64,000 bases of DNA from Lagierella massiliensis (GTDB lineage Bacteria; Bacillota; Clostridia; Tissierellales; Peptoniphilaceae), in contig NZ_CYUO01000004.1 in assembly GCF_001407835.1 (NCBI RefSeq), forward strand, positions 200,739 to 264,738, in the 5' to 3' direction. The position numbers and the translations under genes are program-made. The notes beneath the pieces are model-generated. The model saw nothing but the letters and a program-made list of their open reading frames with translations. It searched no databases and had not been told where the DNA came from. Each line of letters opens with the position of its first letter. Within the stretch, counting starts at the first letter, position 1. Shown piece after piece: positions 2-19,743 of the stretch.

Positions 2-2002
2 CAAATCATTCCTGGAACATATATAACGATAACAGTAAATCCAGGAGAAGATAAGACTGTAAGTGAATTTCTTGTAAATGGCGAAGATTTAATTGGACAA
101 TTGAAAAATAACAAATACAGTTTCTATTTAGATAAGTGTACGACCATTGAAGTAAAGTACATTCAAAAGCCAACTGATCCAAATCCAGAAAGTGATTTTG
201 TTTTTGATGTAAATACAGGAACAATTACAGATTATAGCTATAGTGGAAGAAAAGACGTTATAATACCTCGTACAATAAAAGGGGTGGAAGTAAAAGCTAT
301 AGGAGAGTATGCTTTCTATTATAAAGGTCTTAACAGCGTTAAAATTCCTGATACAGTTACAGAGATAGGAGATTTAGCATTTAACTCAAATAATCTTGGA
401 GTTGTAACCATTCCTAATTCTGTTGTAAAAATTGGAGATGGAGCATTTAAAGAAGCAGGCCTTACAAAGGTAGTCCTTCCTAAAGATATTAAAGATATAG
501 GCAAAGGAGCTTTTAAAAATAATTCACTAACTGAATTTAGCATACCTAAAAACATGGAAGTTATACCAGAATCACTTTTAGAAAATAACGAATTGGAAAA
601 AATTGTAATTCCAGATGGAGTTAAAGAAGTAGGTAAAAAAGCATTTTATAATAACAATCTAACAGAAGCAGAGTTTGCTGACTCTGTTAAAAAGATAGAC
701 TCAATGGCATTTGTTAATAACAAGCTTGAAAGTGTAGAACTTCCAAATGACTGTGATGTGCATATACTTGCATTCGATGAAAATGTAAAAACAAATATAC
801 CTAAAAAACCAGAAAAAGAAGTATCTGATGAAAAAGATTTTGCATTTGACAAAGAAACTGGAACTATCACAGAATATTTATCAGATGACCCTATAGTTAA
901 GATTCCGAGCACAATAGATGGAGTTGCTGTAAAGAGAATAGGAAATTTCGAAGACTATATAGGCATAAAAAAATTCAAAGTTGGAGCTTTTGAAGGAAAA
1001 GAAATATTACAACTTACAATTCCAGAAGGAGTTGAAGAAATATTAGAAGGAGCCTTTAAGAATAACTCCCTAAAAACTTTAAATCTTCCACAATCTTTAA
1101 AAGTTTTAGAAAAAGATGCTTTCTCAGATAATAAAATAAAATCTGTGAATATTCCAAAGGAAATCAAGGAAATTTCTGAAGGTGTTTTTAGAAACAACGA
1201 ACTTGAAGAAGTTACTATGGCAAAAGATGTAAAAAGAATTGGTGCAGAAGCCTTTATGAATAATAATCTAAAAGCCATAGATATACCAGATGGTTTAACG
1301 ACTATTGAAGCTAATAGTTTTGCTTCTAATAATTTAACGGAAGTTCTATTACCGGAAAGTGTAACATCAATAGAAATAGGTGCATTTATAGGAAATCCAA
1401 TTGAAAAAATAAATTTACCAGAAAACCTTGAAAAAATTGGAGATGGAGCTTTTAAATATACAAGACTTACAGAACTTACAGTGCCAGAAAAGGTAAAAGA
1501 AATCGGAAAAGAAGCATTTTCTTACAGCCCAATTAAAAATGCAAGCTTTTTAGGAGGGACTGAAATAGGAGAAAGAGCATTTTACTCTTGTGGATTAGAA
1601 GAATTAAACTTTTCAGATGATACTGTAATTGGAGTTCAGTCTTTCCAAAATAATAACTTAAAGAAAGTTACTATCCCTAAAAATACAGAAAGACTTGCTG
1701 ACTATGCCTTTGCTCAAAACTTTTTAACAGAAGTAAATTTACCAGAAGGTTTAAAAGTTATAGGATCAGGAAGTTTATATGTAAATCATCTTGAAAATAT
1801 TAATCTTCCATCAACAGTTGAAACAATTGAAACAGCAGCCTTTTTCAACAACAGACTTGAAAACATAGAAATAGGGCCAAATGTTAAAAAGATTGATGAC
1901 GGAGCTTTTAAAACAAACAAATTAACAGAAGTTAAAATTCCTAAGGAAATAGTTTTAGGAAAAGATGTTTTTGATGAAACTGTAAATATTGTAAAGTACT
2001 AA
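2..2002 (+). CDS. BspA-like leucine-rich-repeat surface protein, 5' end missing
   Basis: The reading frame is open from the first bases of the window, so the N-terminus lies outside; the first internal start-like codon (TTG at 101) is not a credible start. The visible part opens with an InlB/BspA-type beta repeat (VNPGEDKTVSEFLVNG, ending in EVKYI). Two LRR_5 arrays follow, with about 20 repeats of the type LTEVxIPxxVxxIGxxAFxxNxL. Each array is introduced by a related module (DFVFDVNTGTITDY and DFAFDKETGTITEY). No LPXTG or transmembrane anchor is present at the C-terminus (ends NIVKY), so any wall attachment must be N-terminal. Such proteins are usually exported adhesins; the ligand here is unknown. 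The fold is clear, the role is inferred. Confidence 0.85.
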   Translation, partial: QIIPGTYITITVNPGEDKTVSEFLVNGEDLIGQLKNNKYSFYLDKCTTIEVKYIQKPTDPNPESDFVFDVNTGTITDYSYSGRKDVIIPRTIKGVEVKAIGEYAFYYKGLNSVKIPDTVTEIGDLAFNSNNLGVVTIPNSVVKIGDGAFKEAGLTKVVLPKDIKDIGKGAFKNNSLTEFSIPKNMEVIPESLLENNELEKIVIPDGVKEVGKKAFYNNNLTEAEFADSVKKIDSMAFVNNKLESVELPNDCDVHILAFDENVKTNIPKKPEKEVSDEKDFAFDKETGTITEYLSDDPIVKIPSTIDGVAVKRIGNFEDYIGIKKFKVGAFEGKEILQLTIPEGVEEILEGAFKNNSLKTLNLPQSLKVLEKDAFSDNKIKSVNIPKEIKEISEGVFRNNELEEVTMAKDVKRIGAEAFMNNNLKAIDIPDGLTTIEANSFASNNLTEVLLPESVTSIEIGAFIGNPIEKINLPENLEKIGDGAFKYTRLTELTVPEKVKEIGKEAFSYSPIKNASFLGGTEIGERAFYSCGLEELNFSDDTVIGVQSFQNNNLKKVTIPKNTERLADYAFAQNFLTEVNLPEGLKVIGSGSLYVNHLENINLPSTVETIETAAFFNNRLENIEIGPNVKKIDDGAFKTNKLTEVKIPKEIVLGKDVFDETVNIVKY

Positions 2003-2030
2003 GAGATATGACAATATAATAATTAAAGAT

Positions 2031-2062
2031 AAAATCCTCCCTAAATTTGTGGGAGGATTTTT
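2031..2062. terminator. Bidirectional intrinsic terminator
   Basis: AAAATCCTCCC pairs with GGGAGGATTTT across a short loop and is followed by T residues on both strands. It lies between the LRR gene and the convergent histidine kinase gene. Confidence 0.8.
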
Positions 2063-2124
2063 AATACTGAAAGTTTTTCTAAATATTATTTTATCATAGG
2101 GTTCTATTTTGGCATTTAAAAGAA

Positions 2125-3351
2125 TTAAAAAAGATTTAAATCTAAGGTGTTAAAACTTATTTTAATTTTTGTTCCAACATTTTCTTTACTGACAATATCA
2201 AATGTAAATGAATTTGGGAACATCAATTTAAATCTGGAGTATACATTAAAAATCCCAACATTTTCATTAAAAACTTTGTCATTTAGTAAAATTTTATTTA
2301 TATCATCAAGCTTTTCGGACTCAATTCCTATTCCATTATCAATTATTTCTAAGAAGCAAACATCTCCTAATTTTTGTAATATTATTTTTAGTCGACCCAT
2401 TTCTTCAGTGTGTTTAAAACCATGTTTAAATACATTTTCTACTAAGGGCTGTAGTGAAAAATATGGTATTATCACATCTAATGCAGAATCGTCAACTTCC
2501 AAGCTATAATCAAATTTTTTGCTAAATCTAATCTGTTGAATGTTTAGATAGTCTTGTATGCACCTGAGTTCTTTTCTGATGGTTGTTGAATTGTCGGTGT
2601 AGGAGAATACATATCTAAGCATATTGCTGAAACTAAAAATCATGTCACTTGCTTCAGAACTTCTGTCCAAGGAAATTAATCGAGATATGCTGTTTAACAC
2701 ATTGAAAATAAAATGTGGCATTATCTGTTTTTGTAGTGTAGAATATTTAATCTTAGAAAGTTCTGACTCTAAGATTAAATTTTGTTTTTCTACTTCAAAT
2801 AGTATTTCCTTTTGTTTACTAAGTTCTTCGGAATAAATTCTATTTGCATTTAATTGAATTATATAGTCGGTAATATTGCTTAAAGCAATGACGGTAGATT
2901 CTATTTCTTCATCAGACATTTCCGGAATTTCATTAAAGTAATCATCTAAAAGTTTGCTATCCAAGTCATCTGGCCAGTTTTTTTTAAGCTCTTTATAAAA
3001 TTTTGATTCCTTTGTACATCTTACTTGACCTGCTGTTAAAGCTCCTAACAAAATACCATTTAAGTATAGGGGAATGGCTATGTTTACAAGGCCTGCATGA
3101 CAGAGGTAGATGCTTGGTTTATTGGTGAGTTTTGATTTTTTAATAGCAGCTTTGTTACATTCTTTACATTTAAGTGAACCAGTTTTAGAAGAATTAATTA
3201 AAGTGCAAAAATTGCAGAAGTTACCACCTTTTCCTATGTGGCTTCCCTCTTCATCTACAAAGACCACTCCAAAACCTGTAGCATGGCCGAAGGAGTTTTC
3301 AAGCTCCTTTTGTTTGTTCCTGGGTATTAGTTTACTTATTGAATTTGTCAT
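2125..3351 (-). CDS. PocR-domain sensor histidine kinase (LytS/YesM type)
   Basis: 408 residues and no transmembrane segment, so a cytoplasmic sensor kinase. Residues ~5-170 form a PocR-type ligand domain with a cysteine set (C46xxC49, C62xxC65, C84-H85), the pattern expected for this family. A short coiled coil (~175-205) leads into a His_kinase domain with the phospho-acceptor H213 in MPHFIFNVLN. A HATPase follows (N box LVENVFKHG, N306; G box DNGIGIE, 338-344). Its 3' end overlaps nothing, but its start overlaps the upstream response regulator gene by 20 bp, so the pair is translationally coupled. PocR domains in characterised proteins sense small metabolites or metals; the ligand here is unknown. 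The neighbouring hydrolase and permease genes are the likely targets. Confidence 0.88.
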   Translation of the reverse strand: MTNSISKLIPRNKQKELENSFGHATGFGVVFVDEEGSHIGKGGNFCNFCTLINSSKTGSLKCKECNKAAIKKSKLTNKPSIYLCHAGLVNIAIPLYLNGILLGALTAGQVRCTKESKFYKELKKNWPDDLDSKLLDDYFNEIPEMSDEEIESTVIALSNITDYIIQLNANRIYSEELSKQKEILFEVEKQNLILESELSKIKYSTLQKQIMPHFIFNVLNSISRLISLDRSSEASDMIFSFSNMLRYVFSYTDNSTTIRKELRCIQDYLNIQQIRFSKKFDYSLEVDDSALDVIIPYFSLQPLVENVFKHGFKHTEEMGRLKIILQKLGDVCFLEIIDNGIGIESEKLDDINKILLNDKVFNENVGIFNVYSRFKLMFPNSFTFDIVSKENVGTKIKISFNTLDLNLF

Positions 3352-4378
3352 TATTTTCCCTTCTCTCCATTGGTGTCATTTTAAATTTTGAATTAAAGGA
3401 TCTATAAAATTGTTGTTTATTTTTAAAACCTGCAATACTCCATATATCAGAAATTTTAAGTTCAGTAGAATCAATTAACTCCAAAGCTCTACTAAGTCTT
3501 AAATTTTCGATATAGCTGTCAACGGTTATATTTTCTTCTTGCTTAAAAACTCTACTCAAATAGGTTTTATTTACGAAGAAGATATTGCTAATTTCATTTA
3601 GTCCTATTTCAGGATTAGAAAAATTGTTTTCTATAAAATTTTTTACAATTGTTATTGAGAAAGTCTCTTCAGATCTTATATTAAATGATTCTATACAAAT
3701 TTTTTTTAGAGAATCACTTATGTTTGAATAGGTTAGGTCATCTTCTAAAAAGGATGACAAGTGGCCAAATATATTATATTTTGTGTTCTTTATATTTCTC
3801 AATGTAGTTTCAATTGTCAATAGAAAATGATTGATGTAAGTCATCTTAGCTATGTAATTTATCTGGTTTGCAACTAATAGAGAAAGTGATTCAACTGTTG
3901 ATAATCCACCAGACAAATTGTTATTTATAAGATGTTCTTTGAAAAGGTCAATTGTTTCAACTAACCTAAATCGGTCTTCTGTTGAATTACTAAGGATGAA
4001 TGTGCTATCATCATTAGCTTGAAATAGATTTTCTATTGTGTTTATTATCTTTGATTCGTCTGTTGGCTTTAATAGATAATCGTTAAAGCCATATTTTATC
4101 GCCTGTTTCGCATATTGAAATTCGGAATAAGCAGAATTGAGAATTATTTTAATATCCGGGTTATATCTTTTAATTGACTTACCTGCCTCAATACCATTTT
4201 TAAGAGGCATCGATATGTCCATAATAACAAGATCGGGATTAAATTGTTTAGTCAATTTAACTGCGTCAAGTCCGTTGTTACAAGTTCCTACAACTTCCAT
4301 ATTATTATGTTTGTTTATTATATGTGACAAGTATTCAAGTTCTAAAGATTCATCTTCTACTATCAATATTTTTATCAC
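3332..4378 (-). CDS. AraC-family response regulator (YesN-like)
   Basis: 348 residues. An N-terminal receiver domain carries the acidic pair E8/D9, the phospho-acceptor D54 in VIMDISMP, and the conserved K in LLKPTDE. A poorly conserved linker (~130-240) precedes a C-terminal AraC/XylS double helix-turn-helix (~245-345; ..YLSRVFKQEENITVDSYIENLRL..). It is first in a two-gene minus-strand operon with the PocR kinase and points away from the isochorismatase/APC genes across a 125-bp shared intergenic region. Regulators of this type usually activate neighbouring transport and catabolic genes. That role is inferred from layout only. Confidence 0.9.
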   Translation of the reverse strand: MIKILIVEDESLELEYLSHIINKHNNMEVVGTCNNGLDAVKLTKQFNPDLVIMDISMPLKNGIEAGKSIKRYNPDIKIILNSAYSEFQYAKQAIKYGFNDYLLKPTDESKIINTIENLFQANDDSTFILSNSTEDRFRLVETIDLFKEHLINNNLSGGLSTVESLSLLVANQINYIAKMTYINHFLLTIETTLRNIKNTKYNIFGHLSSFLEDDLTYSNISDSLKKICIESFNIRSEETFSITIVKNFIENNFSNPEIGLNEISNIFFVNKTYLSRVFKQEENITVDSYIENLRLSRALELIDSTELKISDIWSIAGFKNKQQFYRSFNSKFKMTPMERRENNDKFNK

Positions 4379-4503
4379 TTAGCTTCACCTCGGTAAATAA
4401 ATGATACCAAATAAGTTAAAAAATGCAACTGCTATTTGCGAACGTTTCCACTATAATTATATTAACATCAATAAGTGAGATGGTAAAACATAGGAGGTAG
4501 ATT

Positions 4504-5199
4504 ATGAGAGTAAATGAAAGACATTGTTCTTTTTATTATGAAAAAGAACAGATTAATGGAAAGTTGGAGTTTAACCTTGAAACAACGACGTTGTTAATAG
4601 TAGATTTACAAAATTATTTTGTAAACAGACCAGACTATAACTTAAATAATCCGTCAGAAAAAGATGAAGCAGAAAGATGGAAATACTTTTATGACAGGAT
4701 TGATAACGTTATTCTTCCCAATAATAAAAAGCTTCTTTCTGAAGCGAGAGAAAGAAAATTGTTAGTATCATATGCAACTATTGTTACTCAACTTTCAAAT
4801 GGAAGAGATAGATCTTTGTCGCAAAAAGAAAGTGGATTTAACAATCTTATGATTCCAAAGGGAAGTGAAGAAGCAAAAGTTCACAAATCTATAAAACCGA
4901 TAGAAGATGAATTGGTTATTGAAAAAACTACGGATTCTGCATTAACAGGATCAAATTTAAGATTATTATATAGAAATTGTGGAATAACAGATGTAATAGT
5001 TACAGGTGTCTTTACAGATCAATGTGTATCAGGGACAGTTAGAAGCTTGGCGGATGAGAGCTTTAAGGTTTGGTTGGTTGAAGATGCTTGTGCTGCAGCA
5101 ACTGAAGAAATACAAAATCATGAGTTAAAAGTATTAAATAATATTTATTGTAATGTTGTAAACACAGAAGAAGTTCTCAACTTTGTAAGGAGTAAATAA
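4504..5199 (+). CDS. Isochorismatase-family cysteine hydrolase
   Basis: 231 residues with the family's catalytic triad in order: D34 (IVDLQN), K141 (VIEKTTDSA) and C174 (GVFTDQCVSGTVRSL). The family hydrolyses amides or vinyl ethers (nicotinamide, N-carbamoylsarcosine, ureidoacrylate, biuret, isochorismate), and the sequence alone does not choose among them. A ~28-residue N-terminal extension precedes the core. It starts 10 bp after an AGGAGG site. Its stop overlaps the start of the downstream permease gene by 1 base (TAATG), so hydrolase and transporter are made together. This suggests the permease imports the hydrolase substrate or exports its product. Control by the divergent two-component system is likely. 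Confidence 0.88.
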   Translation: MRVNERHCSFYYEKEQINGKLEFNLETTTLLIVDLQNYFVNRPDYNLNNPSEKDEAERWKYFYDRIDNVILPNNKKLLSEARERKLLVSYATIVTQLSNGRDRSLSQKESGFNNLMIPKGSEEAKVHKSIKPIEDELVIEKTTDSALTGSNLRLLYRNCGITDVIVTGVFTDQCVSGTVRSLADESFKVWLVEDACAAATEEIQNHELKVLNNIYCNVVNTEEVLNFVRSK

Positions 5200-6566
5200 T
5201 GAAAGATAATAAATTAAAGAAAAATCTGTCTATATTTAACATGATAGCACTCTCCTCTGGAGCTGTTATTGGAGGATGGTTAGCGGAAGCTCCATATTGG
5301 TTTCAAACGACAGGAGCAGGGGCTGCATTCATATTTCCGATATTGGCAATATTATTAATTCCAGTTGGTTTGGCATTTGGAGAACTTACTGCAATGCTAC
5401 CATTTGCATCGGGAGTAGATATTTGGACAACAAATGCATTTGATCACAGAATGGGCTTTGGGGTTCAGTGGATGATGTTTTTGGTACAGGTTGTTGAGCC
5501 ACCTCTAATGGCTTTTATATTCGGTACAGTAATAAATCATTTTGTTCCATTAAGTCAAATGCAAATTTTAATAATAGCTTTGATAATTGTTACTATATGG
5601 TTTATTGCATCTAATTATGATATAAAACTTGCTGGGACTTTATCAACAATATTTTTTGTAGTAATGATTGCTGCAAGTTTATGTGTATCATTTTCATTCT
5701 TTTTCAGTGGAAAGTGGTCAATAGAAAACATAAACACCAATGGTGGATTTTTCCCAATGGGAGGCAAGGGAATATTCATAGCAATGGCAGTGTTCTCATT
5801 AAAATATATAGGCTTTGAAATGGCACCAACGCTTATTGAAGAGACAAATTTCCCTGCTAAAGATATCTGGAAGGTTATTGCATCGGCACTTCTTATTCCA
5901 GCTGTCCTATATTTTATTGTAGTAATGGCTATTGGAGGAATGGCTCCATGGCAAGAAATTAGTGAAATGACAATGCCAGAACCACAGCTTGTTGCTTTAC
6001 ATGGACTGCCTAAAATAATAGGAACAGTTGCAATTATTTCTGGACTTCTACATGCATTCACAACACTAATGGGTTTTTGGACATCTTCAACAAGAGTTCT
6101 GTATGGAGCTGCAGAAATTAATCAACTACCAAAAGCTTTTAGTAAGATAAACAAACATGGACAACCTTATATTTCAAATCTTGTAGTATATATATTCACA
6201 ATTTTATTCTGCCTATTTAGTGGAAGTAATTGGGTTCAATATATCTATGCTATTTCAAGTATAGCAGCAGGTGTTGTATACTTTGTATCATGTGTTAATG
6301 TAATTGTGTTAAGAAAGAAACATCCTGAATGGGAAAGACCATTCAAGGCACCTGGTGGGGTGCCAATGATGATTGCTGGTATGATAATATCAGTTTGGCT
6401 TATGATAGGTGCAGGTATGGAATTGGATAAGGGAGGATATGTTTCACTATTAGCCTTTGTAATTGTAGGATTTATTGTATACTTCATTAATAAATCCTTT
6501 AGAAAATCAAACCCTGATAAACAACCAATAGTGTTAACTCCTGAAGACATAGACAAATACCAATAG
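5199..6566 (+). CDS. APC-family amino acid permease
   Basis: 455 residues, about 12 predicted transmembrane segments. The APC signature begins in helix 1 (IALSSGAVIGGW) and continues in helix 2 (GLAFGELTAMLP). It is most like the amino acid/polyamine/organocation transporters. The substrate cannot be read from the sequence, but the coupling to a cysteine hydrolase suggests an amino-acid-derived amide or ureido compound. It is the second gene of a two-gene operon and ends at a strong bidirectional terminator. Confidence 0.88.
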   Translation: MKDNKLKKNLSIFNMIALSSGAVIGGWLAEAPYWFQTTGAGAAFIFPILAILLIPVGLAFGELTAMLPFASGVDIWTTNAFDHRMGFGVQWMMFLVQVVEPPLMAFIFGTVINHFVPLSQMQILIIALIIVTIWFIASNYDIKLAGTLSTIFFVVMIAASLCVSFSFFFSGKWSIENINTNGGFFPMGGKGIFIAMAVFSLKYIGFEMAPTLIEETNFPAKDIWKVIASALLIPAVLYFIVVMAIGGMAPWQEISEMTMPEPQLVALHGLPKIIGTVAIISGLLHAFTTLMGFWTSSTRVLYGAAEINQLPKAFSKINKHGQPYISNLVVYIFTILFCLFSGSNWVQYIYAISSIAAGVVYFVSCVNVIVLRKKHPEWERPFKAPGGVPMMIAGMIISVWLMIGAGMELDKGGYVSLLAFVIVGFIVYFINKSFRKSNPDKQPIVLTPEDIDKYQ

Positions 6567-6577
6567 ATTATGTAAAT

Positions 6578-6619
6578 AAAAAATCTACTCCAGCCCTTAC
6601 AGGTAGGAGTAGATTTTTT
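6578..6619. terminator. Bidirectional terminator
   Basis: AAAAATCTACTCC pairs with GGAGTAGATTTTT around a 14-nt loop, with T runs on both strands. It separates the APC permease gene from the convergent CWB2/NlpC gene. Confidence 0.85.
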
Positions 6620-8607
6620 TACTTAAGCACTGAAAAATCTCTTAATGTATTTGAACTTTCCAAAAATGTTATACGTCCCTTATTTTCAAGTCTTGTGCTT
6701 GAAACTGCGTTTATAAATGGAGAAACTCTTTTGCCATTTACATAGTGGTATCCATAGGAGTGAACCATCATTGGGATGCCCTGTTCGTTTTTACCAAGGT
6801 ACATTACAGTGTGTCCTGGCATATAAAGTGCACTTCCTGGATTTTGTTGTAACAATAATTTTTCCTTTGCACTATTTCCACCGGATATTTTAAAGTTTAC
6901 TTTTTTACCAACAACGTCAGCTTCTTGTGCTGATGCATTTCTTGCCATCTTTATTCCAAATGACCTATACACATCTCTAATGAAGCCGGAGCAATCTCTC
7001 GTGTTATTTGAATGGCCCCATCCATATTTTTCGCCTTGAAACTTCAGTGATTGTGATATTACATTTGCTTGTGTAAAAGGAAGATATCTTTTAACTGCGT
7101 CAGTATTTTTTATTGCAACTTCTGTTGTATTAAAATTATTTCCTGCAACTGGCATTAATACTTTAAATGAGCTACCTTCTTCACTTACAAGGGGAAGATA
7201 GGTTCCCATATCAAGGAAGCGTCCGTCAGGTAATTTAATCTGTCTACTTGTGATGGTGATAAAATCTTTTGATTTGATATTTTTAATATTTTCCTTTGAA
7301 ACAATCATTATATCTTTTTTTGGAATCCAACCTTCATAGTCGGCGCAAACTACATTTGCCCAACTACCATCGTTGCTATATCCTTTAATTGCAACTTCGT
7401 CCCATGGGAACAGTCCTGTTTCTGCGTTGTAGTCGTCAAATGTGGCAGGGTCTCTAAATGATTTGCCAAGAGGTTTTTTCTTTAATATTGTTCTCTTTGC
7501 CACATAACCATACTCTTTTGCGCTTATTTCGAATGGCTCATAAATATATGGAGATAGAGAAATATTCTTTTTATTTATTGCGTTTATTTCTTCTTCTGTA
7601 TAAATAACGTCCCTTGAGTAGTTGTTGTAGTAATCAAAGTATTCAAAGGAAGTTTTATTTTTAGGAACTTCTCGATTAGCAGTAGGATTTACAACGCTAT
7701 CATCTACTGAAGATTTTCCACCAACAACATAGATTGAATTACTATTATTCAAAAATTCTCTACTATTTGAATCTAAATTTTTTCCGTCTGTCAAAATAAT
7801 TGCCGCCTCCTTTTTAAAGCTTAAAGTGCCTGCAGCAAGACCATCAATAAAGCTATAGCCATTTACAAGAGCGGTATTTTTGTAACCTGAGGCCTTTGAG
7901 ATATTAAGAGAGGTTTCAAAACGGTTCTTACCAGAAATCCTCTTTGCTGCACCAATATATTTGTAAGTGCTTTCTGAAATTGAAGAATTACCACCAAGAA
8001 CTGTTTTTGGAGCTTCCTTTTCCTTCAGATAATTAGATGGATTGTTATTATTTACAAGGATAAGTGGTTTATCTCCCTTGGCAAGGGAAGATGATGCAAC
8101 TGCATCTGCAACTTCAGAAGCTACAAGATATCCACTTACATCAGAGTTTTTAGAAATTTCTTCGCTGATTAATTCTGATGTTTCGTATCTGTTTTTTCCA
8201 CCAAGCCTAATAACAGTATCTGAATATTGTTGAAGATTTTTTTCAACGCCACTTGATATTGATGAACTTCCTCCTAAAATGTAGATAACATTTGGTTTGA
8301 CTCTATTTATCTCATTTATTGTTTCTGTTGGAATAGCATTTGTATTTGTCAAAAGTAAAGTTCCAGAGGTTGAGTTTGCTAAAACTCCTCCTGGAAGAGC
8401 GTCTATAAAAGAATATCCATTCGCTAAAACAACGGTTCTGTTTTCGTTTTTAAGTTCATTTTCGTCTAAAACTCTCTTTGAAATTTCAACAGCAGTTTGA
8501 AATCTATTTGAGCCGCTTATTCGAGTAAACTGTCTATCTTTTGCAAAGCCAGTTGATGCTAAAGCAATTGTTAGACCAAGAGCTAAAACAATATTTTTCT
8601 TTTTCAT
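6619..8607 (-). CDS. Cell-wall-bound NlpC/P60 hydrolase with CWB2 repeats
   Basis: 662 residues. A signal peptide (~1-22, ending in FAK) is followed by three cell-wall-binding type 2 repeats (~28-115, ~125-205, ~222-305), each with an RISGxNRFxTA-like start and an LGG/VGG core. An SH3-like region follows (~365-425; GYSNDGSWANVVCADYEGWIP). The C-terminal NlpC/P60 domain has the catalytic Cys ~539 in TRDCSGFIRD and His ~599 in MPGHTVMYLG. Family knowledge points to an exported D-glutamyl-peptide endopeptidase that cuts peptidoglycan stem peptides and is held on the wall through CWB2 binding to anionic polymers. It is transcribed alone. Start: ATG, with the signal peptide beginning MKKKNIVLA. 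Confidence 0.9.
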   Translation of the reverse strand: MKKKNIVLALGLTIALASTGFAKDRQFTRISGSNRFQTAVEISKRVLDENELKNENRTVVLANGYSFIDALPGGVLANSTSGTLLLTNTNAIPTETINEINRVKPNVIYILGGSSSISSGVEKNLQQYSDTVIRLGGKNRYETSELISEEISKNSDVSGYLVASEVADAVASSSLAKGDKPLILVNNNNPSNYLKEKEAPKTVLGGNSSISESTYKYIGAAKRISGKNRFETSLNISKASGYKNTALVNGYSFIDGLAAGTLSFKKEAAIILTDGKNLDSNSREFLNNSNSIYVVGGKSSVDDSVVNPTANREVPKNKTSFEYFDYYNNYSRDVIYTEEEINAINKKNISLSPYIYEPFEISAKEYGYVAKRTILKKKPLGKSFRDPATFDDYNAETGLFPWDEVAIKGYSNDGSWANVVCADYEGWIPKKDIMIVSKENIKNIKSKDFITITSRQIKLPDGRFLDMGTYLPLVSEEGSSFKVLMPVAGNNFNTTEVAIKNTDAVKRYLPFTQANVISQSLKFQGEKYGWGHSNNTRDCSGFIRDVYRSFGIKMARNASAQEADVVGKKVNFKISGGNSAKEKLLLQQNPGSALYMPGHTVMYLGKNEQGIPMMVHSYGYHYVNGKRVSPFINAVSSTRLENKGRITFLESSNTLRDFSVLK

Positions 8608-8670
8608 AATTCACCATCCACTTCTATTTTTATTAAGCATACCACAATCTAAAAGCTATGTGAACTAAAA

Positions 8671-8692
8671 AACCTTGGGTTTCCCCAAGGTT
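8671..8692 (-). terminator. Terminator of the M29 aminopeptidase gene
   Basis: AACCTTGGGG pairs with CCCAAGGTT (minus strand) and is followed by TTTTT. It lies 5 bp beyond the stop codon. Confidence 0.8.
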
Positions 8693-8696
8693 AAAA

Positions 8697-9932
8697 CTAA
8701 AATGCCCAGTTACCATCTTTAAAGATATATTCAATTTCTCCATTTGGAAGTTCGCCAGTTATTTCAAGGTCCTTTGATCCAACCATAAAGTCTTCGTGAA
8801 TTAGTGAGTCATTCACACCAGCTTCAAGTAATTCTTCGTCAGATAGGTCAACGCCACCCTTTATACAAGTTGGATATGCCTTACCAAATGCAAAGTGACA
8901 TGAAGCATTTTCGTCGAACAATGTGTTGTAGAAAAGAAGTCCTGAGTTTGAAATTGGACTGTCATATGGAACAAGTGCAATTTCACCAAGGTATCTTGCG
9001 TTTTCGTCTACGTCAAAAAGGTCGGTTAGATGTTGCTTTCCTACCTTTGCGTCATAGTCAACAACTTTTCCATTTTCAAATGTAAATACCATTTCATCTA
9101 CAAGATTGCCAGACATATTAAGTGGCTTTGTAGAATAAAGTTTTCCATTAACTCCAGTTCTCTTAGGAAGTGTAAAAACTTCTTCTGTAGGCATGTTTGC
9201 AATAAACACATCCCCCTTTGCATTTTCAGATCCACCTGAAATCCAAATATGATTTTCAGGAAGTTCTACTTCTAAATCAGTTCCAAGGGAGTTTTTATAA
9301 TGAACTTTTTTGTATTGCTTTTCATTTAAAACAGCTGCGTGTTTGTCCATTACATCAATATGTTTATCCCATGCCTTTATAGGGTCATCTTGGTCCGTTC
9401 TTGTTGTGTAGAAAATTGCGTCCCAAAGTTTTTCCATTGCTTCTTCTTCAGAAACATCTGGGAAGACTCTCTTTGCCCATCCCACTGTAGGAACTGATAC
9501 AACGCACCATGAATTTAAATCGTTCATTGTATACTTCATGTTTTCCTTGTTGGCAGCAGAGAAGGCCTTGCTCCATGCTGCTGTTTTTTTAGGATCAACA
9601 TCTTTTAAAAGTTCAGGGTCTGTTGCTGCAACTGAGATTACACATGCACCCTTTTCCATGTAGTACTTTGTTCTTTGAACCATCCAGTCTGGAACTTCTT
9701 CAAAGTGTTCCACCGGTGCGTTTTCAAATTTCATAAGTGTAAGAGGGTCATCGGACCATTGCATCACAACTTCAACGGCACCTCTTTCGTATGCCTTCTT
9801 TGCAACAAGTCTTGCAAAGTCCGCTCTCTCAACAGGACAACGTAGTAGTACTGGTTGTCCCTTTTGAACATTAACACCTTTTTTAACTACTAAGTCCGCT
9901 AATTTTTCCATATTTTTTTCAATATTTGTCAT
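8697..9932 (-). CDS. M29-family aminopeptidase
   Basis: 411 residues, the full length of the AmpS/PepS/aminopeptidase II family. The expected two-metal ligands are visible in the C-terminal half: E in EEVFTLPKR, E in LGEIALVPYD, H in ASCHFAFGKAYP, and H and D in LIHEDFMVGS. It is a cytoplasmic metallo-aminopeptidase that releases N-terminal residues from peptides. In an amino-acid fermenter it would feed the free amino acid pool alongside PepF, encoded just upstream on the other strand. Monocistronic. Confidence 0.92.
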   Translation of the reverse strand: MTNIEKNMEKLADLVVKKGVNVQKGQPVLLRCPVERADFARLVAKKAYERGAVEVVMQWSDDPLTLMKFENAPVEHFEEVPDWMVQRTKYYMEKGACVISVAATDPELLKDVDPKKTAAWSKAFSAANKENMKYTMNDLNSWCVVSVPTVGWAKRVFPDVSEEEAMEKLWDAIFYTTRTDQDDPIKAWDKHIDVMDKHAAVLNEKQYKKVHYKNSLGTDLEVELPENHIWISGGSENAKGDVFIANMPTEEVFTLPKRTGVNGKLYSTKPLNMSGNLVDEMVFTFENGKVVDYDAKVGKQHLTDLFDVDENARYLGEIALVPYDSPISNSGLLFYNTLFDENASCHFAFGKAYPTCIKGGVDLSDEELLEAGVNDSLIHEDFMVGSKDLEITGELPNGEIEYIFKDGNWAF

Positions 9933-10070
9933 TTAATCACCTCATATCATTATTGCCTTACTTAATTGTATACCCAAAAGATGAGAAGAATAATATAATT
10001 ATAGATGAAAATGTTTTAAAATGTTTACATGGGATATATAGAAAATAGTGAAATAAAAGAGGAGGAAGAG

Positions 10071-11849
10071 ATGGATATACTTAAAATGGTTGATAGAAAA
10101 GATGTTGACGAGAGATACACTTGGAATTTAAGTCACATCTTCAAAAATAAAGAAGAAATGTTAAAACAGGTTGATGAAGTAAAGAATTTAACAGAAAAGT
10201 TTATAAAAAAATTTGACTGTGTCTATGAAGATAAGAAAACAGTTAAAGATGCACTTGAACTATATTCTGAAATTTTAGAAAAGGCCTTTCTTTCATTGGA
10301 CTATGTGTCACTTAATGTTGAAACGGATTACAATAATGGAGAAAACTATAAATTATTAGCTGAAGTGGACAATGTTTTGAGCGACCAAATGGCGAAGATT
10401 TCTTTCTTTAAGATTAGACTTTTAAACACCGACGAAAAAGTTTTAAAGGAATTAAAAGAAGATGAAAAATATGGTTCATTTATAGAAAGAGCATTAGAAG
10501 ATAAGCCATATGTATTATCGGAAGAAACTGAAAAGGCAATTGCAAAGATGACTCCACTTAATTCATTTTATTCAATTTACAATGCAATTAAGTTACAGGA
10601 CATGGTATTTCCAGACTTCGAAGCAAATGGAGAAAAGAAATCTCTTTCATACAACCTTTACGAAGGAACCTACGAAGGCTCAAATGACACAGAAATAAGA
10701 AGGAATTCATATAAAGAATTTTATAAAGTCTTAGAAGCTCATAAAAATTCAACAGCTGCTGCATACTTAGGAGAGTGTCAAAAGATGAAGGTACTTTCTG
10801 AACTAAGGGGCTACGACAGCGTGTTTGACTTTTTATTACATGACCAAAGGGTTGATAGAGAGCTTTACAATAGACAACTTGATGTTATTATGGAAGAACT
10901 TTCTCCAATTATGAGAGAGTATGCAAAGATTTTAAAAAGAAATCACAACTTAGATAAGATTACCTACATGGACTTAAAGGTTGATCCAATAACAGGTTTT
11001 GAACGAGAAATAACTGTTGAAGAGTCAAAGGATTTAATTAAAGAAGGTCTTGAAGTCCTTGGAGAAGAGTATGGAGAAATGTTGGAAGAGGCATTTAATG
11101 ATAGATGGATTGACTTTGTAAACAACCACGGCAAGTCAACAGGAGCCTTTTGTGCATCACCATATGGAACAAATTCCTTTGTGCTTATTAACTGGACCGG
11201 TACAATGACAGAAGCAATGACCCTTGCTCACGAACTTGGACATGCAGGACAGGGCAAGTACACAAATGAAAACTGTAACATCTTAGACACCGACCTTTCA
11301 CTATACTTGGTGGAAGCTCCTTCAACAGCAAATGAACTTATTATGGGAAGGGAGCTTTTGAAAAAGGCAAAGAGCGAAGATGAAAAAAAGTATTTAAAGG
11401 GACAAATCATAGCAAGAACCTACTACCACAACTTTGTAACCCACTTTATAGAAGGATATTACCAAAGGGAAGTTCTAAAACTAATTGACGAAGGAAAGTC
11501 TTTTACTGCAGACGACCTTTCAGAAATATTCCTTGACACATTAAAGAAGTTCTGGGGAGATGATGTTGAACTAACAAAGGGTGCTGAACTAACATGGATG
11601 AGACAGCCACATTACTACATGGGACTTTATCCATACACCTACTCAGCGGGATTAACCATAGGAACACAAGTTGCAAAGCTAATTGAAAAAGACCCAGCAA
11701 ATGCAAAGAACTGGATTGAAGTTTTAAAGACCGGTGGAAAACTAAAACCACTTGACTATGCAAAGGCAGCTGGAGTTGACATTTCAACTGACGAGCCACT
11801 TAGAGACACAATAAAATATATCGGTTCATTGGTAGAGGCCTTAGAATAA
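10071..11849 (+). CDS. pepF: Oligoendopeptidase F (M3B)
   Basis: 592 residues from the ATG at 10071, chosen because GAGGAGGAAGAG sits directly before it. An in-frame ATG at 10029 has no ribosome site and adds 14 non-conserved residues. The C-terminal M3 domain has the zinc motif H387-E-L-G-H391 (TLAHELGHAGQGKYT) and a downstream metal-ligand region (YLVEAPSTANELIMG). The N-terminal M3B-specific domain (~110-180) is present. It cleaves short peptides in the cytoplasm. It is first in an operon with proC, whose start overlaps its stop by one base, then the cysteine hydrolase and GNAT genes. Confidence 0.95.
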   Translation: MDILKMVDRKDVDERYTWNLSHIFKNKEEMLKQVDEVKNLTEKFIKKFDCVYEDKKTVKDALELYSEILEKAFLSLDYVSLNVETDYNNGENYKLLAEVDNVLSDQMAKISFFKIRLLNTDEKVLKELKEDEKYGSFIERALEDKPYVLSEETEKAIAKMTPLNSFYSIYNAIKLQDMVFPDFEANGEKKSLSYNLYEGTYEGSNDTEIRRNSYKEFYKVLEAHKNSTAAAYLGECQKMKVLSELRGYDSVFDFLLHDQRVDRELYNRQLDVIMEELSPIMREYAKILKRNHNLDKITYMDLKVDPITGFEREITVEESKDLIKEGLEVLGEEYGEMLEEAFNDRWIDFVNNHGKSTGAFCASPYGTNSFVLINWTGTMTEAMTLAHELGHAGQGKYTNENCNILDTDLSLYLVEAPSTANELIMGRELLKKAKSEDEKKYLKGQIIARTYYHNFVTHFIEGYYQREVLKLIDEGKSFTADDLSEIFLDTLKKFWGDDVELTKGAELTWMRQPHYYMGLYPYTYSAGLTIGTQVAKLIEKDPANAKNWIEVLKTGGKLKPLDYAKAAGVDISTDEPLRDTIKYIGSLVEALE

Positions 11850-12649
11850 TGTATAGCCTTGGATTTATCGGATTTGGCAACATGGGCAAGGCGATGGCCC
11901 TTGGTGCGGTAAAGAACGGTTATAATAAAGAAGAGATTGTGTTTTCAAAAGTGTCGGACATAAAAGCTGTGGAAGAAGAGACGGGCATAAAGGGATTTGA
12001 AGAAAACACCGATGTTGCAAAAAATTCTAAAATAATTATCCTTGCCATAAAGCCCTATCAATATGAAAAGGTGATTAGTGAAATAAAAGATTATGTGGAT
12101 GTAAATAGCATAGTGGTTCCCATAACACCAAGCTTTACAATGGAAGAGATAAAAAAACTTTTTAAAAGAGATGTGAAAGTTGCACGCATTATGCCAAACA
12201 CCCCTGCCATGGTAAATAATGGAATAACGGGAGTTTGCTTTACAGATAATATGACGGATATTGAAAGGGAAACAGTATTAAAATTTTTAAAATCCTTTGG
12301 AGAAGTCATAGAAGTGGAGGAACATTTAATTGCCGCTGTTTCTGCAGTGAGTGGATCAGGACCTGCATATATCTACATGCTCATTGAAGCAATGGCAGAC
12401 ATGGCAGTGTCAGCGGGAATAAAGAGAAAAGACGCCTACAAACTTTCCGCAAAGACAGTTGAAGGTGCGGCGAAGATGGTTCTTGAAACTAAAAAACATC
12501 CAGGAGAACTTAAAGACGACGTGTGCTCTCCGCTGGGAAGTACGATACAAGGTGTAATGGAACTTGAAGAAAATGGATTTAGAGGAAGTATAATAAAGGG
12601 ACTTAAAAAGACGCTATATAGATTTAACGAGATGAACGAAGATAAGTAG
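11849..12649 (+). CDS. proC: Pyrroline-5-carboxylate reductase
   Basis: 266 residues. A Rossmann NAD(P) site (LGFIGFGNMGKAM, residues 3-15) is followed by a ProC dimerisation domain with the signature VSGSGPAYIYMLIEAMADMA (about residues 167-186). The enzyme reduces pyrroline-5-carboxylate to proline, the last step of proline synthesis. Overlapping the pepF stop (TAATG) implies coupled translation. Its stop is immediately followed by the stem-loop switch in front of the next gene. Confidence 0.95.
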   Translation: MYSLGFIGFGNMGKAMALGAVKNGYNKEEIVFSKVSDIKAVEEETGIKGFEENTDVAKNSKIIILAIKPYQYEKVISEIKDYVDVNSIVVPITPSFTMEEIKKLFKRDVKVARIMPNTPAMVNNGITGVCFTDNMTDIERETVLKFLKSFGEVIEVEEHLIAAVSAVSGSGPAYIYMLIEAMADMAVSAGIKRKDAYKLSAKTVEGAAKMVLETKKHPGELKDDVCSPLGSTIQGVMELEENGFRGSIIKGLKKTLYRFNEMNEDK

Positions 12650-12680
12650 GGAGGGGAGACCCTCCTTTTATCAAAGGAGG
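12650..12680 (+). promoter_or_regulatory. Mutually exclusive hairpins, one burying the downstream ribosome site
   Basis: Hairpin A: GGAGGG (12650-12655) pairs with CCCTCC (12660-12665) around GAGA. Hairpin B: CCTCCTTT (12661-12668) pairs perfectly with AAAGGAGG (12673-12680) around TATC, and AAAGGAGG is the ribosome site of the hydrolase gene starting at 12686. The segment CCTCC is shared, so only one hairpin can form. A ribosome finishing proC (stop at 12647-12649) would cover part of arm A, so proC translation could influence the choice. The pairing is seen directly; the control is inferred. Confidence 0.6.
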
Positions 12681-12685
12681 AAGAT

Positions 12686-13204
12686 ATGAAGGACTTATTA
12701 ATAATTGTAGATATGCAAAATGATTTTGTTTCAGGAAGCCTTGGAACAGAAGAGGCGAAAAAAATAGTTTCAAATGTGGTGGACTTGGCAAAAAACTTTG
12801 ATGGAGATATTTATTTTACAAGGGACACCCACGAAGAAGACTACCTTGAAACACAAGAGGGAAAAAATCTTCCAGTTAAACACTGCATTAAAAGCACTGA
12901 AGGCTGGCAAATAATCGACGAACTAAAGGGATTTGTAAAGGACAATGTAATAGACAAGGTGACCTTTGGATCAAAGGAGCTTGTTGAAAAGCTGGAAAAA
13001 ATTAACCAAAACGAAGGAATAAAATCAGTTACATTAGTTGGCCTTTGCACCGACATCTGTGTTATATCAAACGCTCTTATGCTAAAGGGTTTTATGCCAG
13101 AAGTTCCAATTAAAGTTATAGCAGATGCATGCGCCGGAGTAACACCAGAAAGCCACGAAAGGGCATTAGAGTCAATGAAGACATGCCAAGTTAGCGTGGA
13201 GTAG
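12686..13204 (+). CDS. Nicotinamidase/isochorismatase-like cysteine hydrolase
   Basis: 172 residues, shorter than the hydrolase at 4504 and not a close copy. The triad is D9 (IIVDMQNDF), K91 (VIDKVTFGS) and C125 (GLCTDICVISNAL). The GLCTDICV context and length are closer to nicotinamidase-like members than to carbamoylsarcosine amidase. The second histidine of the classical nicotinamidase metal site is not obvious, although DTHEEDY is present at 47-53. It sits third in the pepF-proC operon. Its ribosome site (AAAGGAGG) is inside a perfect 8-bp hairpin, so output may be controlled at translation. Confidence 0.85.
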   Translation: MKDLLIIVDMQNDFVSGSLGTEEAKKIVSNVVDLAKNFDGDIYFTRDTHEEDYLETQEGKNLPVKHCIKSTEGWQIIDELKGFVKDNVIDKVTFGSKELVEKLEKINQNEGIKSVTLVGLCTDICVISNALMLKGFMPEVPIKVIADACAGVTPESHERALESMKTCQVSVE

Positions 13205-18456: not shown

Positions 18457-19743
18457 TTAATAACCTTTAGCAGTTAAATAATTAAAACCTGTTTCGTTAG
18501 TTGCTCCAGTTATAGCTTGAATTTCTACTAATATAGTTCCATCTTCTCTTAGGGCACCCTTAGCACCACCAGCTATAATGTCAACATATTCTATATGACC
18601 GATAATCTTGTCTAACTTAGGAAGTATAACCACTTGGTTAGCATTTCCACCAGTAACTACTGCGTTTGCTCTTTCGTCAGCGTCAGCTAATGATTGAGAA
18701 GCTCCGTCTCTACCAGCATATTCGTCAGTTACGATTACAGTCTTAACATTCTTCATTTCGATCTTCTTGCAGTTCATGATTAAGTCTGTATCTGGGTTAC
18801 CGAAACCTTCTTGAGATACGATAACTGCGTCTACTCCAAGGTATTCACATAATTTTGCAGTCCAGTTAGAAGATCTTTCCTTATCCATTAGATATACGTT
18901 CTCGTTAGTGATTATTACACCAAGGAAGTTGTAGTCTTTACCATGTCTTGCATAAAGGTCTTCTATAACTCCGTTGTTTAAGTGAACGTATGTTGGGTTC
19001 TTATCGCATGCGGATACACAGTTACCACTTACGATTGCTCCATCCATAACTTCTGTAGGGTATAGGATTGTAGGTACTATTTGTTTAGCATCTACACCGT
19101 AAACATATGTGTCATGTAGCAAACCTTGTGTTTGTAGCATGTATACATAAGCTACCTTTGGAAGATCAGGATATTCGTTAATTTGCTCTAATAATGGTTT
19201 AGTTTCATAAGTTACTACTTCATCTGGAGTAAGATCTTTTGCAAGTCTTCCGATGTAATCAGCAGCTTTAAGACCAATCATTCTTATAGCATTTTCGTGC
19301 ACATGTTGCTTAATACCGTCAATAGGTTCAGCTATAACAACTAAGTTTATAGTCTTTGAGAAAGGAGTATATTTTGCACCTTCTCCAACCATATCGATGA
19401 TACCTTCTTGGAAACCAACTATCTTACCAGTAGTAACAACAGCCATTCCCTTAAGAGCATGTGTTCTTCCTTGACCAACGGTATCAACTTTATTAAGGAT
19501 TCCAGGGAAAACTTCTCCAGGTCCTTCAACCTTTACTCTTGGTTCAAGAACGTCCTTAACAGGTGTTATTCTTACACTTTCGCCGGGTTTAGCAATGTCA
19601 AAGTCGATTGACTTAACGTGCTCATCTCCGCCTACTGCTTCTAATAACTCATCCTTATTTACGTAAAGGATACCGTCTTCGATTTTTGATGAATCAGAAA
19701 ATTGGACATCTTTTATAAAGATTTTACCTAATTCTAATTTCAT
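18457..19743 (-). CDS. grdE: Glycine reductase component B proprotein GrdE
   Basis: 428 residues. The self-cleavage site is visible as N241-C242 (VSGNCVSACDKNPTY). In the family the chain is cut before this cysteine, which becomes a pyruvoyl group that binds the glycine amino group as a Schiff base. The rest matches GrdE (PGEVFPGILNKVDTVGQGRTHALKG; AGRDGASQSLADADERANAVVTGG). It works with GrdB as protein B. The gene follows trxB with a 59-bp gap containing only a 5-bp hairpin (19779-19792), then a GGAGGTGTG ribosome site. Confidence 0.96.
   Translation of the reverse strand: MKLELGKIFIKDVQFSDSSKIEDGILYVNKDELLEAVGGDEHVKSIDFDIAKPGESVRITPVKDVLEPRVKVEGPGEVFPGILNKVDTVGQGRTHALKGMAVVTTGKIVGFQEGIIDMVGEGAKYTPFSKTINLVVIAEPIDGIKQHVHENAIRMIGLKAADYIGRLAKDLTPDEVVTYETKPLLEQINEYPDLPKVAYVYMLQTQGLLHDTYVYGVDAKQIVPTILYPTEVMDGAIVSGNCVSACDKNPTYVHLNNGVIEDLYARHGKDYNFLGVIITNENVYLMDKERSSNWTAKLCEYLGVDAVIVSQEGFGNPDTDLIMNCKKIEMKNVKTVIVTDEYAGRDGASQSLADADERANAVVTGGNANQVVILPKLDKIIGHIEYVDIIAGGAKGALREDGTILVEIQAITGATNETGFNYLTAKGY

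Follow-up and report, generated by a model that had tools for sequence, protein, structure and literature searches.

Pairs of a PocR histidine kinase and a response regulator have been described beside catabolic operons, namely, in the accessible part of PMC4207490, in PDU1D loci and next to the 1,3-propanediol operon of Clostridium butyricum. Here we describe a locus of Lagierella massiliensis, a gut-type anaerobe, in which such a pair faces an amidohydrolase and an APC-superfamily permease instead. The locus occupies positions 2125–6566 of the window, as we call the whole stretch of 64,000 nucleotides that was analysed, which lies on contig C4 of the genome (G000 in our numbering). No shell protein or diol dehydratase was found among the window open reading frames (ORFs) scanned, which were ten in 101–13204 with Pfam and most of those in 2125–27466 with NCBIfam. 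The hydrolase, hereafter HYD, has the isochorismatase fold, a family in which an Asp-Lys-Cys triad carries out catalysis. HYD shares this fold and triad with N-carbamoylsarcosine amidohydrolase (1nba), RutB, TrtA/BiuH and NicF/Ami, but it is only 19–24% identical to them, forms a clade of its own and stands in a genetic setting of its own. An isochorismatase is also listed for the BUF type of microcompartment, whose enzyme set, as given in the accessible parts of PMC4207490 and PMC6620236, differs from that of the cassette. As far as the available portion of PMC9007349 describes them, the citrullinases Ctu (PF00795) and CtlX (PF02274) resemble HYD (PF00857) in a possible reaction only, and this mainly concerns its sister clade, HYD2; the fold families differ. 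We found no description of the cassette in the literature searched, the coverage of which was thin for subscription journals, and a search for citrulline together with isochorismatase and ornithine returned only an unrelated match. The cassette is real and conserved, and it is built from known parts: PocR two-component control, an isochorismatase-fold amidase and an APC permease.

Gene families and proposed function of the cassette

The ORFs and Pfam confirmed the arrangement that an earlier note on this DNA had proposed, a two-component pair divergent from a cysteine hydrolase and an APC permease. On the minus strand, a kinase of 408 residues of the LytS/His_kinase type (2125–3351; PocR 117 bits, His_kinase 86, HATPase_c 31) overlaps by 20 nucleotides with the gene of a response regulator of 348 residues with an AraC-type helix-turn-helix (3332–4378; Response_reg 96 bits, HTH_18 58). 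All these scores exceed the gathering cut-offs, and the combination of PocR, histidine kinase and AraC-type response regulator identifies the pair as a PocR two-component system. Across a shared intergenic region of 125 bp (4379–4503), the plus strand encodes HYD, a cysteine amidohydrolase of 231 residues (4504–5199), followed by the permease of 455 residues (5199–6566); the last base of HYD is the first base of the permease gene, so that stop and start overlap by one base. The permease matches the AA_permease profiles with 111 (AA_permease_2, above its gathering cut-off) and 103 bits, which places it in the APC superfamily. It did not reach any NCBIfam subfamily cut-off, the nearest models being those of amino-acid transporters and of an ethanolamine permease, both below cut-off. 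The domains and the conserved gene order described below support the view of the earlier note that sensor, regulator, hydrolase and transporter form a self-contained unit.

The same note had placed the kinase in the cytoplasm and had described its PocR domain as rich in cysteine. The peak hydrophobic stretch of the kinase, residues 87–105, coincides with predicted PocR beta-strands (89–97 and 100–112), and thus no transmembrane helix is indicated. In an alignment of ten kinases, which comprised that of the window and nine others 39–68% identical to it, cysteines C49, C62, C84 and C112 were invariant, in support of that description. The H-box was invariant as well, and the phospho-acceptor region would lie around H213.

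HYD belongs to the isochorismatase fold but stands outside every curated NCBIfam family, since it has the fold and the triad whereas all NCBIfam cut-offs are missed. Its Pfam score was 112 bits against a cut-off of 27, and PF00857 was the sole Pfam match at E 0.001; neither PF00795 nor PF02274 was matched. The triad residues D34 (4603–4605), K141 (4924–4926) and C174 (5023–5025) are invariant in 39/39 HYD sequences and, together with R82, R103 and R180, in 57 HYD and HYD2 sequences when gaps are ignored. The predicted structure (pLDDT 87, with low values for residues 1–16) matched the isochorismatase-fold amidases 3irv, NicF, RutB, Ami, TrtA, 1nba and BiuH with Z scores of 25.0–26.7, and nicotinamidases with lower scores, near 22. 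This comparison, which the earlier note had proposed, did not single out any substrate family. Nor is HYD, by NCBIfam, one of the nicotinamidases that the note had allowed for: its score with the nicotinamidase model NF008623 was 20 bits, where 174 are required. The biuret hydrolase BiuH (NF050097, 57.8 bits against 370) and RutB (TIGR03614, 39.1 bits against 378) were rejected in the same way.

From these families, we consider it likely that the four genes are a cassette that controls its own expression and serves to take up and hydrolyse a single small compound. This would be an amide or a ureido compound with the character of an amino acid or amine, the safest description of the substrate class of HYD that we can infer. 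The permease would bring the compound into the cell rather than out of it. Cys174 of HYD would then attack the substrate carbonyl, aided by Asp34 and Lys141, with the release of ammonia (and of CO2, if a carbamoyl group is cleaved) and of an amino acid or amine, which would be fermented. The cytoplasmic PocR kinase may sense the substrate or the product and phosphorylate the AraC-type regulator, which, once phosphorylated, would activate rather than repress the HYD and permease genes from the shared gap. We are fairly sure of the class of this mechanism. The cassette is a clean and portable test case both for the ligands of PocR domains and for the hydrolysis targets of the large uncharacterised part of the isochorismatase fold.

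Conservation of the operon and a repeat in the divergent gap

Thirty-eight more HYD loci, 51–96% identical to HYD of the window, came from a single scan of a species-level genome collection and, with the window, make 39. As the scan was queried with peptide patterns of the window protein, this sample favours close relatives; the nearest named one is Mediannikoviicoccus vaginalis (L002, 96%). HYD was linked to an APC permease in 29/39 loci: directly after HYD in 23, after one inserted gene in 5, and divergent in 1 (L039). The divergent kinase and regulator were present in 12/39. Ten of the 39 loci cover less than 2.2 kb upstream of HYD, and the pair was nevertheless visible in two of these.

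The family is uncommon across wider groups. At E 1e-60, the HYD alignment matched 8/391 genomes of the class and 6/398 of the phylum, with two genomes common to both sets and some of the matches belonging to the sister clade; a profile covering both clades matched, at E 1e-50, 16/249 genomes of the order and 5/394 of another order. A tree of 60 rows separated 42 HYD from 15 HYD2 sequences with a branch support of 86/100, which is under the mark that the tool sets for a well-supported branch, and with a distant, long-branched row (L106) on the HYD side. The clade of the window grouped with Pyramidobacter (Synergistota; support 97/94). Rows with the labels Spirochaetota and Fusobacteriota sat among Bacillota, one of them under the name Fusobacterium naviforme, a label that may be unreliable. 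This interleaving of Synergistota, Spirochaetota and Fusobacteriota with Bacillota suggests the transfer of HYD between phyla. One HYD copy (L068:8442–8855, genome G598) is broken by a TAG stop codon and lies near genes that, by eye, resemble those of carbamoyl-phosphate synthase and xanthine dehydrogenase.

In the gap between regulator and HYD, a direct repeat, TGCAAA-N15-TGCAAA (21-bp spacing), was found with at most one mismatch in 6/11 distinct loci (L006, L011, L013, L016, L019 and L052); the 11 remained of 14 regions after the near copies L002, L110 and L017 had been removed. Any other half-site spacing from 8 to 39 occurred in at most 2/11. In each of the six loci, the repeat in the gap was the sole match with no more than one mismatch in 10.7–20.7 kb, and when 12 whole loci were scanned, the 21-bp spacing gave 14 matches, whereas spacings of 18–20 and 22–24 gave 1 to 7. 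In that scan, L017, L021, L002 and L003 matched outside the gap, and L034 and L037 had no match. The half-site was picked by eye from the same gap regions, so counts in shuffled sequences are not independent tests of it. As the repeat sits between the two divergent genes, the regulator probably controls HYD and the permease in the relatives that have it, and the repeat is a candidate operator with which the regulon could be found in relatives.

The gap of the window itself contains a candidate −10 element of HYD, TATAAT (4452–4457, plus strand; also in L002 and L003), and a putative ribosome-binding site, AGGAGG (4492–4497, plus strand). On the minus strand, at 4437–4450, the sequence TGGAAACGTTCGCA matches TGNAANCGNNNNCA, which we take to be the cre consensus. 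This match is kept in the 96% relative L002 and not in L003. The window holds two such matches where 0.74 would be expected, and at least two were obtained in 18/100 shuffles. For regulation by CcpA, the analysis covered the cre site and gave this single cre-like match within the promoter region.

Several observations weigh against the proposed self-regulated cassette. The gap of the window lacks the repeat, its best match having three mismatches, which was equalled in 112/300 shuffles, and the gaps of L003, L021, L034 and L037 lack it as well (three to five mismatches). The proposal of the earlier note that the regulator acts from the shared intergenic region is nevertheless supported by the repeat of the relatives, although the window itself has none. 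The predicted second DNA-reading helix of the regulators of the window and L003 reads FKNKQQFYRSF, compared with, for example, FSNVSHFNRVF in L016, and this difference may be the cause of an altered binding site; yet L037, whose gap has no repeat, encodes a regulator with the common helix. No permease was seen in 10/39 loci, one of which (L035) covers only 0.4 kb downstream, and no divergent kinase and regulator in 27/39, of which 8 cover less than 2.2 kb upstream. With HYD, every NCBIfam model stays below its cut-off, and the neighbouring genes of relatives diverge, pointing to ornithine, ethanolamine or acetamide.

Substrate of HYD and its sister clade

In L055, L058, L096, L098 and L099, the ORF tables place a dCache kinase and a sigma54-type regulator alongside HYD2 and its permease, APC2; Pfam was run on the kinases of L055, L098 and L099 and on the regulator of L055, and all five kinases were aligned. 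A sixth HYD2-APC2 locus, L054, has no kinase or regulator beside it. The same kind of operon has here recruited a second type of sensor, unrelated to the first. Among solved structures, the closest relatives of one of these kinases were the VWFA/cache-domain protein 8s7c, calcium-channel alpha-2/delta-1 and, more weakly, 3lib. In L100 and L102, which have no adjacent permease, HYD2 lies near a TenA-like gene that reaches the thiaminase II model in L102 (208 bits, cut-off 130) and was recognised by eye in L100.

Ornithine genes in the genomes concerned hint at a citrulline-like substrate for HYD2; if a single compound is to be named, citrulline comes first for HYD2, and for HYD it is a weak guess. 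Ornithine aminomutase (PF16552) occurs in 5/6 genomes with HYD2-APC2 (G031, G390, G781, G919 and G949), in 0/9 HYD2 genomes without an adjacent APC2 and in 3/53 genomes without the hydrolase (Fisher p 6e-5 for 5/6 against 3/53), and in the sixth genome, G134, an ornithine aminotransferase gene directly follows HYD2-APC2 (L055; 720 bits, cut-off 656). However, the split by permease was made post hoc, and for all HYD2 genomes the comparison is 5/15 against 3/53 (p 0.01). The counts also ignore kinship; the six HYD2-APC2 genomes represent six families, and the genomes of f1 and f3 tested that lack HYD2-APC2 have no aminomutase, but in family f2 the aminomutase occurs with HYD in one genome and without it in three. 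The dCache kinases of HYD2 loci lack the arginine of the amino-acid motif as given in the accessible part of PMC10104139, judged by eye on kinases not aligned to solved receptors. That HYD itself might be, like HYD2, an isochorismatase-fold citrullinase, with a permease that imports citrulline for its conversion to ornithine, ammonia and CO2, would agree with the 33 residues, triad included, that are invariant in HYD and HYD2 when gaps are ignored, and with the Orr-like racemase gene that precedes HYD in L036 (420 bits, below the cut-off of 480), as a gene of the same cluster does in L035. We nevertheless regard it as unlikely: nine clade-specific positions differ between HYD and HYD2, the aminomutase was found in 1/12 genomes with HYD of the window type and not in that of the window, and the latter has an ornithine carbamoyltransferase, so that citrulline could be used there otherwise. 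Just as doubtful is the wider idea that HYD and HYD2 together make up a single family of hydrolases of ureido amino acids, new and non-homologous, whose members would be citrullinases or closely similar enzymes and would each have an APC importer of their own. At least two unrelated two-component sensors (cytoplasmic PocR kinase with AraC-type regulator; dCache kinase with sigma54 activator) would have recruited this family, which would also have spread between phyla. If true, the citrulline reading of HYD2 would add a third kind of citrullinase in anaerobes.

In other relatives, the neighbours hint that HYD might free ethanolamine, or some similar amino alcohol, from its amide and so feed the use of ethanolamine where this is present. 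Thus, in L024, L026 and L030, HYD, a beta-lactamase-fold hydrolase gene and the APC gene adjoin EUT-type genes (shell proteins, EutP, an ANTAR regulator and kinase, a cobalamin adenosyltransferase, a PduL-type phosphotransacylase and an aldehyde dehydrogenase; Pfam on nine proteins of L030 and L026, and L024 by cluster and eye), and PocR domains are reported, in the accessible part of PMC4207490, among the regulators of PDU and of one EUT type. EutB was found in 6/40 HYD genomes compared with 1/40 without HYD, which is not significant (p 0.11). The 34/40 HYD genomes that show no EutB, many of them draft or metagenome assemblies, rule out an EUT link as a general rule, and EutB had no match in the genome of the window; we regard this role of HYD as improbable. 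An ANTAR target hairpin has A at position 1 and G at position 4 of its loop; among the three leaders before HYD, there was one such hairpin in L026, none in L024 or L030, and no tandem pair. Upstream of HYD in L026 and L030, we noticed by eye a stem-loop and a T-rich, terminator-like stretch. The beta-lactamase-fold gene, which lies between HYD and the permease in 5/39 loci (family tested on L026 and L030), and the isochorismatase-fold lactamases described in the accessible part of the literature would also fit a cassette that protects rather than feeds, in which a toxic amide or lactam would be opened by HYD and carried out of or into the cell by the permease. We hold this to be quite improbable, as the permease is nearest to amino-acid-transporter models, acetamidase and ornithine genes adjoin HYD in other loci, and a cre-like site, as catabolic genes typically have, lies across the promoter region. 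An acetamidase/formamidase-family gene directly follows the permease in L052 (96 bits, cut-off 500) and L097 (PF03069), and in L095 one is found on the opposite strand at a distance of about 3 kb. Like the ornithine aminotransferase of L055 and the Orr-like racemase of L036 and L035, these neighbours act on amides or amino acids, in favour of the substrate class proposed above. By far the least probable proposal is that of the earlier note, that HYD acts as N-carbamoylsarcosine amidohydrolase and so supplies sarcosine reductase. HYD does share the fold of that enzyme, the genome has three Grd-type selenoproteins, and one Grd subunit of the window scores best, though below cut-off, with sarcosine GrdG. 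However, 1nba matched HYD with 38 bits and another protein of the same genome, C5:1065706–1066455, with 201 bits (E 1.5e-58), and it is this protein, not HYD, that adjoins hydantoinase and Grd genes. HYD was rejected as this enzyme, as it is not its closest match even in its own genome. The uptake and hydrolysis of one small amide or ureido compound by HYD and its permease remains the reading that we prefer.

Near HYD, L036 also has an NCS1-type permease gene (146 bits, cut-off 353), in clusters shared with L035, and both loci encode a conserved protein of about 460 residues (L036:7297–8721, L035:5593–6960), which gave no Pfam match (at E 0.001 for L036 and E 1e-5 for L035) and, for L036, none in NCBIfam at E 1e-10.

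Grd genes and a hydantoinase cluster elsewhere in the genome

HYD does not stand in a typed hydantoinase or sarcosine reductase neighbourhood. The GrdB selenoprotein of the window, scored as the fragment ahead of its selenocysteine codon, is typed as that of glycine reductase (617 bits, above the cut-off of 602), and its partner subunit (18457–19743) reaches no type, the best model being sarcosine GrdG with 670 bits, below the cut-off of 780. This part of the window also has matches to SECIS, tRNA-Sec and the glycine riboswitch. The genome has three GrdB-type selenoproteins in all. A second one (C4:108743–112917, L059) came near the betaine model (738.5 bits, cut-off 775), and a glycine betaine BCCT transporter adjoins this betaine reductase-like selenoprotein.

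The third GrdB belongs to a cluster on contig C5 (1059609–1067324, locus L111). It lies below all substrate-specific cut-offs (sarcosine 575/800, glycine 546/602, betaine 540/775) and is nearest to sarcosine. Beside it are a GrdG/E-like gene (sarcosine GrdG 481/780), a gene of a sodium-dependent transporter, a D-hydantoinase gene (495 bits, cut-off 393), a Crp-type regulator gene, a small ORF that by eye looks like GrdX, and the gene of the close N-carbamoylsarcosine amidohydrolase homologue mentioned above. In Tissierella creatinophila, an organism with sarcosine reductase, a D-hydantoinase-like gene is clustered with an N-carbamoylsarcosine amidase gene (PMC5364220). The C5 arrangement resembles the creatinine/N-methylhydantoin pathway of that organism (compare also Clostridium sp. 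FS41, PMC4417704), and HYD of the window is not part of the matching cluster. Probably, then, the C5 cluster is a route from N-methylhydantoin or creatinine to sarcosine. As the homologue lies there with hydantoinase and Grd genes, as in Tissierella creatinophila, the pathway that the earlier note had in mind is probably present in this organism, with another gene that fits the amidase step better than HYD; the creatinine-to-sarcosine idea thus moves to contig C5.

Elsewhere on C5 (84–2203, L112), the ornithine carbamoyltransferase gene (403 bits, cut-off 281), which starts 84 bases from the contig end, adjoins a gene homologous to that of arginine:glycine amidinotransferase (259 bits to 1jdx); together, the two enzymes might turn guanidinoacetate and ornithine into glycine and arginine. 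At L105:9417–10703, a distant relative of HYD is encoded next to a hydantoinase/carbamoylase-family amidase (403 bits, above the cut-off of 204) and to a transporter that is YfcC-like but below its cut-off. The window itself encodes a second, short isochorismatase-fold protein of 172 residues (12686–13204), which reaches no NCBIfam cut-off.

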